Part shown: positions 12,446 through 18,578 of the stretch, piece by piece
Layout: every line of letters begins with the position of its first letter
Position numbering within the stretch: position 1 is the stretch's first letter
NCBI RefSeq assembly: GCF_001282785.1
Contig: NZ_CVUA01000001.1
Coordinates: forward strand, 2,604,001-2,668,000
Reading direction: 5' to 3'
DNA length: 64,000 bases
DNA from: Halolamina sediminis
GTDB lineage: Archaea; Halobacteriota; Halobacteria; Halobacteriales; Haloferacaceae
Notes under the pieces: generated by a model
Told to the model about the DNA's origin: nothing
Database searches by the model: none
The model's input: only the letters and a program-made list of their open reading frames with translations
Made by a program: the position numbers and the translations under genes

Positions 12446-12647
12446 CCACCGATTCCGCCAGCGGTTCCGGAGTCAGTCGCCGTCGATCCCGCCGCCACGT
12501 GCCGGGATCAGTCGCCGTCGATCCCGCCGCCACGTGCCGGGATCAGTCTCCGTCGATCCCGCCGCCACGTGCCGGGATCAGTCTCCGTCGATCCCGCCGC
12601 CACGTGCCGGGATCAGTCTCCGTCGATCCCGTCGAACGGGCTATCGG
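12446..12647. repeat. 35-bp tandem hairpin array (four full units plus divergent end units)
   Basis: Four near-identical units begin at 12481, 12516, 12551 and 12586. Each contains the inverted repeat GATCCCG...CGGGATC (7-bp arms) around an 11-base loop with a CACGTG palindrome. A divergent unit at 12449-12480 keeps the stem with a changed sequence (GATTCCG/CGGAGTC with one wobble). A shortened unit at 12621-12647 keeps CCCG-tcgaa-CGGG. The array fills the gap between the pyrG 5' end and the amidohydrolase stop codon, 10 bp away. It would be in the amidohydrolase 3' UTR. The apparent ORFs crossing it in several frames are by-products of the repeat. No unique spacers, so not CRISPR. Confidence 0.85.
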
Positions 12648-14018: not shown

Positions 14019-14213
14019 TCAGAATCCCAGCGCATCCAGCAGATCGAACCCCCAGCCGAGATGCGCCATCACGTAGTAGCCAACGTAGATCCCCACGATC
14101 GCGACGACGCCCGGGAGCGCCGGCGGCGCCGGGATCGGCAGTCGGAGGAACGTGAACAGCGCCCCGGTGACGATCCCGACGGCGAGAGCCGCGACGACGG
14201 CAGCGACGTTCAT
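14019..14213 (-). CDS. XapX-domain small membrane protein
   Basis: The 64-aa protein with two transmembrane helices contains GALFTFLRLPIPAPPALPGVVAIVGIYVG, here cited as the core FLRLPIPAPPALPG, which is the XapX-type hairpin between TM helices. The ATG at 14213 (MNVAAVV) gives the family-length protein; the longer reading covers the divergent promoter. Function unknown. It is divergent from the cyclophilin gene at 14317. Confidence 0.85.
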   Translation of the reverse strand: MNVAAVVAALAVGIVTGALFTFLRLPIPAPPALPGVVAIVGIYVGYYVMAHLGWGFDLLDALGF

Positions 14214-14316
14214 GGTTCCCGGAGCGACGCGGTCCGCGACCGTAAATGCGGCTATCGGCAGCGGGAACGCGTCGGGAGTCAGCAACGTTAACCGTCGCCC
14301 GGCCGGATTCACGGGC

Positions 14317-14886
14317 ATGAGCTACGAAGACGAGATGGAGAACCCCGAAAACCCCGTCGCGACGATCCACACCACCCACGGCGACATCGTCGTCGAGCTG
14401 TTCGAGCAGCGCGCGCCGACGACCGTCCACAACTTCGTCAGCCTCGCGACCCACGCCGAGGACTACGACGACGCCGAGGTCGGCCCCGAGGGCGAGGCGT
14501 GGGAGGACGACGGCGAGAAGCGCGTCGATCCGCTGTACGACGACGTGGCGTTCCACCGCATCATCTCCGGGTTCATGATCCAGGGCGGCGACCCGAGCGA
14601 GACCGGCCGCGGCGGCCCCGGCTACGAGTTCGAAGACGAGTTCCACGAGGAACTCACCCACGACGGCCCGGGGATCCTCTCGATGGCCAACTCCGGCCCG
14701 AACACCAACGGCTCGCAGTTCTTCATCACGCTGGACGCCCAGCCCCACCTCGACGGCAAGCACGCCGTCTTCGGCCGCGTGATCGACGGGATGGATGTGG
14801 TGCGTGAACTCGGCAACGTCCCGACCGACCGCAACGACCAGCCGCAGGTCGAGGCGAAGCTCGAATCGGTCACAGTCGAGGAGTAA
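14317..14886 (+). CDS. Cyclophilin-type peptidyl-prolyl cis-trans isomerase
   Basis: The 189-aa cytoplasmic cyclophilin has VATIHTTHGDIVVELFE, the catalytic region VAFHRIISGFMIQGGDP (Arg), GILSMANSGPNTNGSQFFIT and LDGKHAVFGRVIDGMDVV. The active-site Arg, Phe, Gln and His are visible. A negatively charged insertion of about 20 aa (VGPEGEAWEDDGEK) near the N-terminus is typical of haloarchaeal copies. It assists protein folding. The ATG at 14317 follows CGTTAACC, an AT-rich element about 25 bp upstream. Confidence 0.95.
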   Translation: MSYEDEMENPENPVATIHTTHGDIVVELFEQRAPTTVHNFVSLATHAEDYDDAEVGPEGEAWEDDGEKRVDPLYDDVAFHRIISGFMIQGGDPSETGRGGPGYEFEDEFHEELTHDGPGILSMANSGPNTNGSQFFITLDAQPHLDGKHAVFGRVIDGMDVVRELGNVPTDRNDQPQVEAKLESVTVEE

Positions 14887-15075
14887 CGCAGTCGGGGACG
14901 AGTTCGGCGAGGTCACCACGAAGCCAGTTTTCCACTCGGATACGCCGAATTCGGAGCCTTCGGCTATCCCGTAAGATCGCGTCGCGTGACGATCACACCG
15001 GGAACCGGATCGCTCCAATCGAGATGAACGAGGGGACGTGCGGCGACCGAACCCACTGCCTGCGACGGACGGAAG

Positions 15076-15089
15076 GGGGGAAACTCCCC
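15076..15089 (-). terminator. Hairpin directly after the cohesin-gene stop
   Basis: On the minus strand GGGGAGTTTCCCC lies immediately 3' of the stop codon of the 15091-16647 gene. It is short and lacks a long U-tract, so a terminator role is tentative. The rest of the 14887-15090 gap holds a GCCGAA...TTCGGC inverted repeat near 14947-14966 and nothing else recognised. Confidence 0.3.
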
Positions 15090-15090
15090 G

Positions 15091-16647
15091 TCAGTCGCCA
15101 GCCACGGCGAGGAGACCGAACAGGGAGACGACGACGAACGCGAGCGCTCCGAACACCGCCAGCGGGGCATCCGTCGGCGCACCCCCATCGTCAGCCGGCG
15201 AACCGACGGCGGTGTCGGCCGTCGACCCCTCCGTGGTGGCCACCGTCGACTCGCCGTCCGAGGTACCGGCGGTCGTGGGGGTCGCCGATGGACGCTCGGT
15301 GGCCGTTCCAGCCTCTTCACCGTCTGCCACGGTGTCGGTCGATTCGTCGTCGGTGCTCCCGTCGTCATGGACGTCAATGCCGCTGTCGGGGGCCGACGCG
15401 ATACCGTAGCTGTTGCCGCTCTCGTCGCCGAGCGAGGAGATCGACAGCGACAGGGCCGTCGATCCAGTGGAGACGCCCTGTAACGTGAGCTCGACGATCC
15501 GAGCGGGTGCTTCGTCAGCACCGTCACGGAGTGCGAACTCGGCGGCAACCCTCGTTCCACGGTCGCGGATTTCTGCCCCGCCGATCCCGGGATCACCGGT
15601 CACAGTCGCGTTCGTGATCTCGGCGGAGCTGTCCGTCGTGAGTGTGACGGTGAGGTTACCGGCTCCGACCCCGCCATCGGCGTTCGTCACGACCACGTCG
15701 ACCGTCGTCGTCTCGCCGACCGAGAGGTCGATCGACCCGGGATCCGTGCGGACGATCACGCCGCCACTCCCTGTACCGTCGTCGTTCGGTCCGGACCGAT
15801 CACCGACGGCCGAGAGAGTGACGGAATCGTTCCGATAGCGCTCCTGGTTCGTCGGGGGCTTGCTCGCCACGGCAGTGACCGTGCCAGCGTCCGAGATCAT
15901 CGACTCGCGGACGACGACAGTCACCTCACCGTCGACGCCGGTGTCGACGGTCCGGTTCCCGACAGTGACGTTGGCTTCGACACGGGCGTTCGAGTCCGTG
16001 CGCATGACCGTGAACGTGATCGACTCATCGAGCGTAGCGTTGTCCGCATCGGCCGTAACGGAGAGGGCAACGTCGTTGCGGGAGTTCTCGACGGTCAGTG
16101 CCGTGTCTGGTGTCCCCCCGACGTCGTAGGGATCGCCCGACTCATCACCCAGCGAATCTATCGAGAGGGCCAGATCGGTCGTCCCCTCAAGCTGGCCCCG
16201 GACGGTTACCTCGGCGACCGTGACCAACCCGGTGTCCGCCGTGTCCATCAGTGCCCCGTCGAAGGTGACGGCGTCGTCGGTAACTGTCACGTTCTCGAGT
16301 CCGGGGTCCCCACGCAGTTCGAAACCGACGATGTCCGCGTACTCCGACTCGACGACCGATATCTCCCCGGAAACCGCACCGACACCACCGTCCGCGTTCG
16401 CGACGACGACGTCGAGTGTACGAGTTTCCCCTTCGTCGACAGTCGCGGTCGTGGGATCGAGCCGAACCGTCGTCGATCCGGCAGTGGCGTCTGTCGTATT
16501 CGCTGTGACGCCGACGCTACCGGGGGAGGTACCGTCGCTCGCGACACTCTGGCCAGCAGCGACCATCGGAACGGCCAGCAGGCACAGACAGACCGCGAGG
16601 ACCGCCACGCGGGACGTACCGACCCCCCGGAAGTAGCGCCCCGTCAT
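15091..16647 (-). CDS. Membrane-anchored protein with two cohesin-like modules
   Basis: The 518-aa protein has an N-terminal signal segment (AVLAVCLCLLAVPMVAAG). Two related modules follow at about 55-185 and 300-430. Each has the cohesin-like pattern TVxxGxTxTxDVVVxNADGGVGA early, then a strand pair, an xDGAxD(T/E)A segment and a closing (G)xTxLxLSIxSLGDESG(D/N)xY strand. A beta-rich insert lies between them (VALSVTADADNATLDESITF). A Ser/Thr/Asp-rich glycosylation-prone linker (about 435-490) and a C-terminal transmembrane helix (APLAVFGALAFVVVSLFGLL) end it. The gene overlaps by ATGA the upstream dockerin-bearing propeller, a likely binding partner. The module assignment is from pattern, not from a profile search. 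Confidence 0.75.
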   Translation of the reverse strand: MTGRYFRGVGTSRVAVLAVCLCLLAVPMVAAGQSVASDGTSPGSVGVTANTTDATAGSTTVRLDPTTATVDEGETRTLDVVVANADGGVGAVSGEISVVESEYADIVGFELRGDPGLENVTVTDDAVTFDGALMDTADTGLVTVAEVTVRGQLEGTTDLALSIDSLGDESGDPYDVGGTPDTALTVENSRNDVALSVTADADNATLDESITFTVMRTDSNARVEANVTVGNRTVDTGVDGEVTVVVRESMISDAGTVTAVASKPPTNQERYRNDSVTLSAVGDRSGPNDDGTGSGGVIVRTDPGSIDLSVGETTTVDVVVTNADGGVGAGNLTVTLTTDSSAEITNATVTGDPGIGGAEIRDRGTRVAAEFALRDGADEAPARIVELTLQGVSTGSTALSLSISSLGDESGNSYGIASAPDSGIDVHDDGSTDDESTDTVADGEEAGTATERPSATPTTAGTSDGESTVATTEGSTADTAVGSPADDGGAPTDAPLAVFGALAFVVVSLFGLLAVAGD

Positions 16648-18104
16648 TCCCCCTCCTGAAGCCGCGCGTACAGCGCCTGTATGTCGGCGATGTCGACTTC
16701 ACCGTCGCCGTTGAAGTCGAACTTCGAGACGTTGTTCTGAACCACGTCACTGTCGAGGTTGGCGAACAGCGCCTGTACGTCGATCACTGTGAACGCGCCA
16801 TCACCGTTGACGTCCTCGTAGAGACCATCCTCGTCGAGGTCCCGTGCTGGCGCGCCGTCGCCGGTCACGTCGCCGGGGCTGATAGCCCCCTCCTCGCGAA
16901 GCGCGTACAGGCTCCCGTCCGTGCTGGCGACGTAGACGGTGCCGTCCAATACCACCGGCGGGACGACCACGTCGTTGCCGGTCTCGAACCGCCAGCGTTG
17001 CTCGCTCGACTGGGCGTCGAACCCGTAGACACTGTTGGCACCAGTGCCGAGGTAGATCATGTCGTCGGCGACGACCGGCGACGTCGGCGACCCGTCGAGA
17101 TCGACACGCCACTGCTCAGTTCCGATCGACGGGTCGATCGCGTACAGCGCCGGCTCCTCCGTCGTCACGTAGAGCGTATCGTCGGCGAAGGTGGGGACCG
17201 TGTCGATCTCGCCGAGGTTACTGAACTGCCAGTTTTGCTCCCCGGTTGCCGCATCGCGTGACTCGAGCACTCCGCTGCCGTCACCGACGAACACCGTTCC
17301 CCCGTCGTAGTCGGCGTAAGTCGTGCCACTGGAGGCGTTCGTGTCGTCGTACGCGTCGCCGGTGAGCCTGGTTCGCCAACTCTCGGCTCCGTCCGAGAGC
17401 GTGTGTGCAGCGAGGAGGTGACGGCCGTTCTCGGGACTCCGGCAGTAGACGTACGCCCGACCGTCCGCGATCGTTGGAAGGCTGAACTCGAATGCATCCG
17501 GTATCTCGAAACGCGACTGTCGGTCCCCCGTCGCCGGGTCGAGCACGTACACGTGGTCGGCAGCGTCGTCAGTCTCCGCGAAGACGACCCCCTCCCCCGT
17601 CACCGTGACCGTGCTCGGTGCATCGACTCCGGTGTCGTTGACCCACTGCCCCGAACCGGTTCCAACCGAGAGCCCGAGGATGCGCCCCGTCCGGGTCGGA
17701 ACGTAGACGATGCTGTTGGCGACGGCAGGTGTCCGGACCAGCGGCTGATTGGTTCCGACCGACCACTCCTCGGCGCCGGTGTCGGCCGAGACAGCGTATA
17801 TCCGCGAGTCCCGGCTGGCTTGGAAGACAGTTCCGTCTTTGACGATCGGCTGGGCGACGAGACTGTCGTCCGTCTCGAACGTCCAAACCGCCTCGACCGG
17901 TTCCGACGGCCCCACCGTATCCAGTGTCCCACTGTTGTGGGCGTCGTGCTGGAACATCGGCCAATCCGAGTTCGTCGCGATCGTCGTCTGCGAGTCGGTC
18001 GGATCCGTCCCAATCGCGGTGCCGACCCCGGATACGAGGCCGATAGCGACCCCTGTTCCGGCGGCCGTCCGAAGTAACTCGCGTCGCGAGAACGGCTCGT
18101 TCAT
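16644..18104 (-). CDS. Tat-exported PQQ-type beta-propeller protein with C-terminal dockerin
   Basis: The 486-aa protein starts MNEPFSRRELLRTAAGTG, a twin-arginine signal. The body (about 45-410) has repeated propeller blades of the BamB/quinoprotein type (WTFETDDSLVAQPIVKDGTVFQ-like strands; cited cores: DGTVYVASTDGSLYAL, WRFETGNDV). The C-terminus is a type-I dockerin with two calcium-loop repeats: DVNGDGAFTVID then DFNGDGEVDIAD, each followed by (V/I)QAL(F/Y)A helices. The ATG at 18104 places the Tat motif at the N-terminus; a longer frame is rejected. An ATTATG element lies about 25 bp upstream. It overlaps the cohesin-type gene by 4 bp, so both are made together and probably bind outside the cell. 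Ligand or substrate unknown. Confidence 0.85.
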   Translation of the reverse strand: MNEPFSRRELLRTAAGTGVAIGLVSGVGTAIGTDPTDSQTTIATNSDWPMFQHDAHNSGTLDTVGPSEPVEAVWTFETDDSLVAQPIVKDGTVFQASRDSRIYAVSADTGAEEWSVGTNQPLVRTPAVANSIVYVPTRTGRILGLSVGTGSGQWVNDTGVDAPSTVTVTGEGVVFAETDDAADHVYVLDPATGDRQSRFEIPDAFEFSLPTIADGRAYVYCRSPENGRHLLAAHTLSDGAESWRTRLTGDAYDDTNASSGTTYADYDGGTVFVGDGSGVLESRDAATGEQNWQFSNLGEIDTVPTFADDTLYVTTEEPALYAIDPSIGTEQWRVDLDGSPTSPVVADDMIYLGTGANSVYGFDAQSSEQRWRFETGNDVVVPPVVLDGTVYVASTDGSLYALREEGAISPGDVTGDGAPARDLDEDGLYEDVNGDGAFTVIDVQALFANLDSDVVQNNVSKFDFNGDGEVDIADIQALYARLQEGE

Positions 18105-18227
18105 GTGAACAACACTCCGTCGACTCGACATAATCGTTTGGTGACTCACGTCGGTCAGGTGGTGCGAACGCTCCTCGGAACACGCGTACCTCGGTAAAGC
18201 TTACCACGACCCGCGTTGGTTGTTAAC

Positions 18228-18578
18228 ATGGATAGTATGTTCGAGCAGTTCTCCAGCGGCTACTACTTGGGAGTGTTGTACGTCCAGCCGGGCGAGGAAC
18301 GGGCCGCCCTCAACGTCGAGGACCACGAGGCGGTCAACCGCCAGCTCTACGGCGACAGCGAGGGGATCGAGCGGCTCGACTCCCCGCTCGTGATGAAGCT
18401 CGACGGCACGCACTTCCCGGTACGGGGCGCCGAGGGCGTCCCGACGGGGACGCTGACGGTGCCCGAGTCGCTGGCCGACGACGAGCTGCCGGCGCGCCGC
18501 GAGGTGCTGCTGGCCCGCCCCGAACGTGCGGGGCAGCTGCTCAAGTACGGCGGCTGGGAGCGGGCGGACGCGGCGTAA
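18228..18578 (+). CDS. Small conserved haloarchaeal protein of unknown function
   Basis: The 116-aa soluble protein starts MDSMFEQFSSGYYLGVLYVQP. No signal, membrane or metal motif is visible. A short AGCTTACC element about 28 bp upstream favours a leaderless start at 18228; an internal ATG at 18237 (MFEQF) is an alternative. The FEQFSSGYYLG N-terminus is one I associate with a small halobacterial family of unknown function. It is divergent from the dockerin operon. Confidence 0.8.
   Translation: MDSMFEQFSSGYYLGVLYVQPGEERAALNVEDHEAVNRQLYGDSEGIERLDSPLVMKLDGTHFPVRGAEGVPTGTLTVPESLADDELPARREVLLARPERAGQLLKYGGWERADAA

Follow-up and report, generated by a model that had tools for sequence, protein, structure and literature searches.

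The window analysed here, 64,000 nucleotides of the Halolamina sediminis genome, carries on its minus strand two genes, A and B, that encode a propeller protein with a C-terminal type I dockerin and a two-cohesin protein ending in a hydrophobic helix (Table 1). The genes share an ATGA stop/start overlap; a 4-bp overlap had already been noticed from the sequence alone, with coordinates that prove exact, and the same −4 overlap recurs in the ortholog pairs of loci L063, L064 and L065.

Table 1. Coordinates of the gene pair and its parts within the window
Feature	Position	Strand	Basis and remarks
Gene A: Tat signal, propeller, C-terminal type I dockerin	16644..18104	minus	486 aa; ORF, sequence, Pfam
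Tat signal sequence of gene A, MNEPFSRRELLRTAAGTGVAIGLVSGVGTAIG	18009..18104	minus	twin-arginine motif SRREL, then hydrophobic stretch
BamB/PQQ_2-type beta-propeller of gene A	16890..17972	minus	Pfam PQQ_2; PDB relatives
Dockerin of gene A: third acidic stretch and two Ca-loop/helix repeats	16647..16847	minus	Pfam PF00404, aa 429-482
ATGA stop/start overlap of genes A and B	16644..16647	minus	sequence
Gene B: signal peptide, cohesin 1, Ig-like, cohesin 2, Thr-rich stalk, TM helix	15091..16647	minus	518 aa; ORF, domain mapping
Cohesin module 1	16090..16479	minus	AF2 model; best Foldseek and VIA matches are cohesins
Ig-like domain between the cohesins	15793..16089	minus	probable beta-sandwich; no family match
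Cohesin module 2	15370..15765	minus	homology to module 1; module HMM
Acidic Ser/Thr-rich stalk	15172..15366	minus	36% Ser+Thr, 24% Asp+Glu over aa 428-485
C-terminal hydrophobic helix (putative anchor)	15109..15171	minus	APLAVFGALAFVVVSLFGLLAVAGD; no basic tail behind
Accessory insert with genes A and B only	14887..18191	.	flanks adjoin in six congeners

The pair occupies an accessory insert of ~3.3 kb. The site is empty in six same-genus genomes (G002, G030, G050, G066, G077 and G086), where the two flanking genes lie side by side, one for a peptidyl-prolyl isomerase (14152–14886) and the other for a 116-aa protein (18228–18578). DNA homology with these congeners ends at 14883-14897 and restarts at 18192-18222, so that the insert consists of exactly A plus B. 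Its GC3 of 79-82%, compared with 91-94% in the flanking genes, speaks for horizontal acquisition of the pair rather than its loss from every one of the six congeners; between 14887 and 18191 there is no transposase or integrase, and the end repeats give no convincing target duplication. In line with a halophilic host, both encoded proteins are rich in acidic residues (16-17% Asp+Glu, against about 4.5-5% Lys+Arg). Elsewhere in the window, a 35-bp tandem repeat of 4.5 copies (99% identical) lies at 12473-12631, just 5' of the CTP synthase gene.

Dockerin and propeller of gene A

Translation of gene A starts at the ATG at 18104, with an in-frame GTG at 18149. The leader contains the Tat motif SRRELLRTAAG and is matched weakly by the Pfam TAT_signal model (E 0.069). 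At the opposite end, the two-repeat type I dockerin described in the sequence-only reading is confirmed: Pfam PF00404 (Dockerin_1) matches with E 3.3e-7 and 30.8 bits, above its gathering score of 22.9, and the genome-wide search scores the domain at 36.1 bits. Both 12-residue D-x-N-x-D-G calcium loops, DVNGDGAFTVID and DFNGDGEVDIAD, are intact, a third acidic stretch (DLDEDG) lies ahead of them, and the AlphaFold model of an ortholog dockerin predicts a helix after each loop, in the type I dockerin layout. The dockerin is also the most conserved part of gene A, with 64-67% identity to four orthologs versus 40-62% for the propeller. Its recognition positions, read from the sequence, are hydrophobic (V/I and I/A), unlike those of Clostridium thermocellum, which are S/T; PDB 2ccl is the C. 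thermocellum S45A,T46A mutant complex.

The propeller has approximately eight blades by repeat count and matches Pfam PQQ_2 with E 5.7e-42; its PDB relatives are designed Cake/Bagel propellers and BamB. The propeller does not qualify as the outer-membrane assembly factor BamB: the curated model TIGR03300 scores it at 122.6 bits, its cut-off being 285, and the Bam complex that forms the bacterial context of BamB would be unexpected in an archaeon.

Cohesin modules of gene B

Gene B begins with a Sec-type leader, and searches of the protein against Pfam, NCBIfam and PDB sequences returned no match; Pfam Cohesin (PF00963) gave no hit over cut-off in gene B or elsewhere in the genome. B-like modules of related genomes were used to build an HMM, which picked up 96 copies across the window and 40 fetched loci, and 82 modules were aligned for profile search and as AlphaFold2 input. 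Against the PDB, the best matches of this 82-module profile, though weak, were Ruminococcus flavefaciens cohesins (E 0.047), and only 4 of the 82 modules weakly touched Pfam Cohesin (best 3.6e-4); comparison of folds was therefore needed.

AlphaFold2 modelling of module 1 with the 82-module alignment yielded an all-beta structure (pLDDT 97.1, pTM 0.89), in keeping with the nine-stranded jelly-roll sandwich of ~140 residues that defines the cohesin fold. In a Foldseek search of the PDB the leading matches to this model were all cohesins (E 2e-8), including that of Archaeoglobus fulgidus, 2xdh, at E 4.5e-8, TM 0.74 and 20% identity. VIA-align, which has a stated background Z of 7-8, gave Z scores of 14.4 for Clostridium cellulolyticum 1g1k, 13.7 for C. 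thermocellum 1ohz and 13.6 for 2xdh. To the extent that a confident model can decide the matter, module 1 has a cohesin fold. Modules 1 and 2 are mutually homologous (41% over 129 aa, E 1e-21), and module 2 is a cohesin by virtue of that homology. The two cohesin-like modules first proposed from the sequence alone thus hold up, and the profile search proposed at the same time succeeded in part: the dockerin passes its cut-off, whereas the cohesins are missed by Pfam and NCBIfam and were recovered through their predicted fold.

That earlier domain list had overlooked the Ig-like domain between the cohesins, which has no match in Pfam, is probably a beta-sandwich, and is 44-52% identical to its counterparts in four orthologs. 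Against the same orthologs cohesin 1 is 50-58% identical and cohesin 2 just 32-37%. In most other anchored cohesins the terminal helix comes with a basic tail or a PGF-like motif; the C-terminal helix of gene B has neither, which makes its anchor less certain than in relatives.

Probable partnership of dockerin and cohesins

Genome-wide HMM searches detected one dockerin and two cohesins, all of them within the A/B pair, and no further dockerin or cohesin of this type; the search for additional dockerin proteins suggested in the sequence-only reading thus leaves that of gene A as the sole one. In 148 genomes of a single family, the modules occur in 46, the dockerin in 63 and both in 39 (Fisher p 2e-12), while 24 of the 63 dockerin genomes in this sampled family have no detectable cohesin of this type. 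Across the class, the cohesin subfamily is present in 171 of 391 genomes, representing 55 of 86 genera; such pairs are common in haloarchaea, and the one in the window is not a one-off. In ~35 fetched loci the dockerin gene lies directly upstream of the cohesin gene, often overlapping it or at most 10 bp away; because these loci were chosen for carrying the modules, they represent the usual layout rather than a random sample. Across 32 pairs, distances between dockerins are correlated with those between their partner cohesins (Mantel r 0.69, 0 of 5000 shuffles), a correlation that partly reflects shared ancestry.

The window genes are out of frame, and docking was modelled on the nearest in-frame ortholog, L062, in which the two genes are split by one TGA. 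Its natural read-through (dockerin, tail, leader and cohesin 1) was folded with an alignment that included ten other in-frame pairs. AlphaFold returned a pTM of 0.73 over 260 residues for this single linked ortholog chain, run without a negative control, with the linker (73–115) disordered in the model. By a simple calculation, a pTM of ~0.47-0.55 would be expected for undocked domains and 0.66-0.75 for an inter-domain error of 2–3 Å, and the model thus gives indirect support for docking of the dockerin on the cohesin in L062. The better conservation of cohesin 1 and the dockerin, compared with cohesin 2 and the propeller, points to cohesin 1 as the principal receptor: the gene A dockerin would most likely bind cohesin 1 of gene B, and the poorly conserved cohesin 2 may not be a binder.

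We propose, with a probability of about 0.78, that A and B form a self-contained, horizontally exchanged two-gene cassette for non-cellulosomal cohesin–dockerin surface display. The product of gene B would leave the cell through the general (Sec) pathway and stay tethered to the membrane through its C-terminal helix, a topology under which the acidic Thr-rich stalk would raise the two cohesins; gene A would be exported folded via Tat and would dock through its C-terminal calcium-loop dockerin, presumably in a calcium-dependent manner, onto the gene B cohesins, so that one or two propellers might be displayed outside the cell. The domain identities, the cohesin fold of module 1 (as a predicted model compared with solved structures), the status of the two genes as sole partners in the genome, their insertion as a unit and their conserved co-occurrence are demonstrated features of the pair. 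These, the conserved orthologous pairs and the docking-consistent ortholog AlphaFold score uphold the two-part system outlined in the sequence-only reading, an anchored two-cohesin scaffold with an exported dockerin propeller.

Cohesin–dockerin specificity is narrow, and the cohesins of B could instead bind something else, such as the dockerin of another cell or a surface glycoprotein, with the dockerin of A having no partner in B and the adjacency of the genes reflecting co-regulation. The low conservation of cohesin 2 and the dockerin genomes of the sampled family that have no detectable cohesin of this type speak for such an arrangement; however, the window genome has no other detected dockerin or cohesin, A and B travel as a unit, and the ortholog docking score agrees with direct contact, which together make this alternative unlikely, if the strongest of those we weighed.

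A second alternative, that the complex is a surface redox enzyme, with A as a genuine PQQ-dependent dehydrogenase and B as its tether, draws on the matches of PQQ-family propeller models to gene A (PF01011, 5e-21; TIGR03075, 4e-19). Every PQQ-dehydrogenase cut-off is missed by a wide margin (TIGR03075, 68.6 bits against 480; TIGR03074, 40.6 against 832), the closest solved relatives are BamB and designed propellers, and the same dockerin bears quite different cargo in relatives; we consider the alternative improbable and reject an identity of gene A as a PQQ enzyme. The "quinoprotein-type" label given to the propeller at the outset is apt for its BamB/PQQ_2-like fold, whereas the enzyme function it implies is unsupported. 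With these cut-offs missed and the nearest solved relatives being designed or structural propellers, a binding role is to be expected over a redox activity, and the propeller probably acts as a binding or interaction module. Least probable of all is a reading in which the dockerin-like tail, stabilised by calcium, would serve only to cap the C-terminus of the propeller or form its stalk, and the cohesin-like modules would be beta-sandwiches for general adhesion, like those in other archaeal surface proteins: the modules do fall under all Pfam and NCBIfam thresholds, and beta-sandwich repeats (PKD, CARDB) occur in many haloarchaeal surface proteins, but the best structural matches are all cohesins, no part of gene A is better conserved than the dockerin, and co-occurrence and gene adjacency across the ~35 loci are strong.

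Known systems and related loci

Non-cellulosomal cohesin and dockerin proteins were described from A. fulgidus (Bayer 1999 and Haimovitz 2008, as cited in PMC9012536), and binding of archaeal cohesin/dockerin pairs is reported as verified (PMC9012536). ANME archaea contain many cohesins and dockerins, including scaffold-like proteins with several cohesins whose proposed role is to fix functional proteins on the outer layer of the cell (PMC9012536, PMC5244752). The window pair resembles that of A. fulgidus in being archaeal, in having no link to cellulose and in its cohesin fold (19-20% identity); it differs in its cargo, a Tat-type BamB-like propeller, in a scaffold that combines two cohesins with an Ig-like domain and a membrane helix, and in its halophile host and accessory insert. 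The A. fulgidus cohesin and dockerin genes are adjacent as well. With ANME archaea the pair shares scaffold-like archaeal cohesin proteins; their cargo, however, includes ABC-transporter binding proteins and S-layer proteins in large numbers per genome, whereas the window holds a closed set of one dockerin and two cohesins. The cohesin fold, the two-loop calcium dockerin and the logic of an anchored scaffold are common to the window pair and the clostridial cellulosomes (C. thermocellum 1ohz, C. cellulolyticum 1g1k), from which it differs in having no cellulase or CBM, in an identity of 12-15% and in a membrane helix in place of S-layer homology domains. A cellulosome is rejected on these grounds, as Pfam finds no carbohydrate-active domain or CBM in A or B and the genome has no second dockerin protein. 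Our search of the open-access literature found no paper on haloarchaeal cohesins; the pair is a newly described case of a class, non-cellulosomal archaeal cohesins and dockerins, that was already known. In the public plasmid records that we checked, matching haloarchaeal cohesin genes are mostly labelled "hypothetical protein", and the system has thus largely escaped annotation.

Relatives carry other cargo on the same kind of dockerin, including subtilases, a 5'-nucleotidase, malectin/PKD giants and a GSDH-like propeller, and the cargo is therefore replaceable. On balance it is an even call whether haloarchaea possess a widespread, modular system of extracellular scaffolds that is exchanged horizontally and is based on a cohesin subfamily absent from Pfam and NCBIfam, in which anchor (TM helix, PGF-type tail or Tat lipoprotein) and cargo (propeller, subtilase, 5'-nucleotidase or malectin/PKD giant) would both be swappable; the window would then be its smallest closed form, with one dockerin and two cohesins genome-wide. 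Judging from the related loci, haloarchaea may rely on the same plug-and-socket to keep proteases, nucleotidases and sugar-binding giants attached to the cell, under salt concentrations that remodel most contacts between proteins. Close to half of the related genomes searched contain members of the family to which the pair belongs, a family that had so far gone largely unrecognised. The window genome offers an unusually clean test of a non-cellulosomal cohesin–dockerin role: it has a single dockerin protein and a single scaffold with two cohesins, no competitor was detected, and close relatives do not have the pair.

In four orthologous loci, L062–L065, the scaffold, in place of a membrane helix, has an additional cohesin-like domain and a second dockerin at its end. 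A third gene there encodes a lipobox protein with a related cohesin-like domain; profile comparison with the main cohesins gives a probability of 84 (E 7.6e-6). Gene B of the window looks like this scaffold with its anchor changed. The three-gene cassettes (L062:7080-11170, L063:6109-9922, L064:7419-11391 and L065:7516-11503) encode a propeller-dockerin protein, a cohesin-Ig-cohesin-X-dockerin 2 protein and a lipobox protein with an X-like cohesin domain, which suggests a two-level scaffold with a lipoprotein anchor.

Other layouts were seen among the fetched loci. A second common one, found in most of L066-L072, L080, L088 and L091, runs from a giant surface protein (~2000 aa) through a cohesin-dockerin protein to an anchored cohesin with a C-terminal TM helix; the giant is malectin/PKD-bearing where scanned (L066, L070), and the cohesin-dockerin protein is PKD-bearing where scanned. 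At L142:337-9454 (G387:C103), a cluster of four dockerin proteins, read by eye, comprises a PKD-cohesin-dockerin protein, a two-cohesin-dockerin scaffold, a putative peptidase-dockerin protein containing HExxH and, on the opposite strand, a subtilase-like dockerin protein; the cluster has the look of a surface complex loaded with proteases. Finally, L084:6650-9972, L087:14263-17591 and L089:3964-7259 each pair a subtilase-dockerin gene with a divergently oriented, separate gene for an anchored cohesin, and may thus encode an anchored protease; the subtilase-dockerin assignment comes from scanning L084, which L087 and L089 resemble in length and layout.
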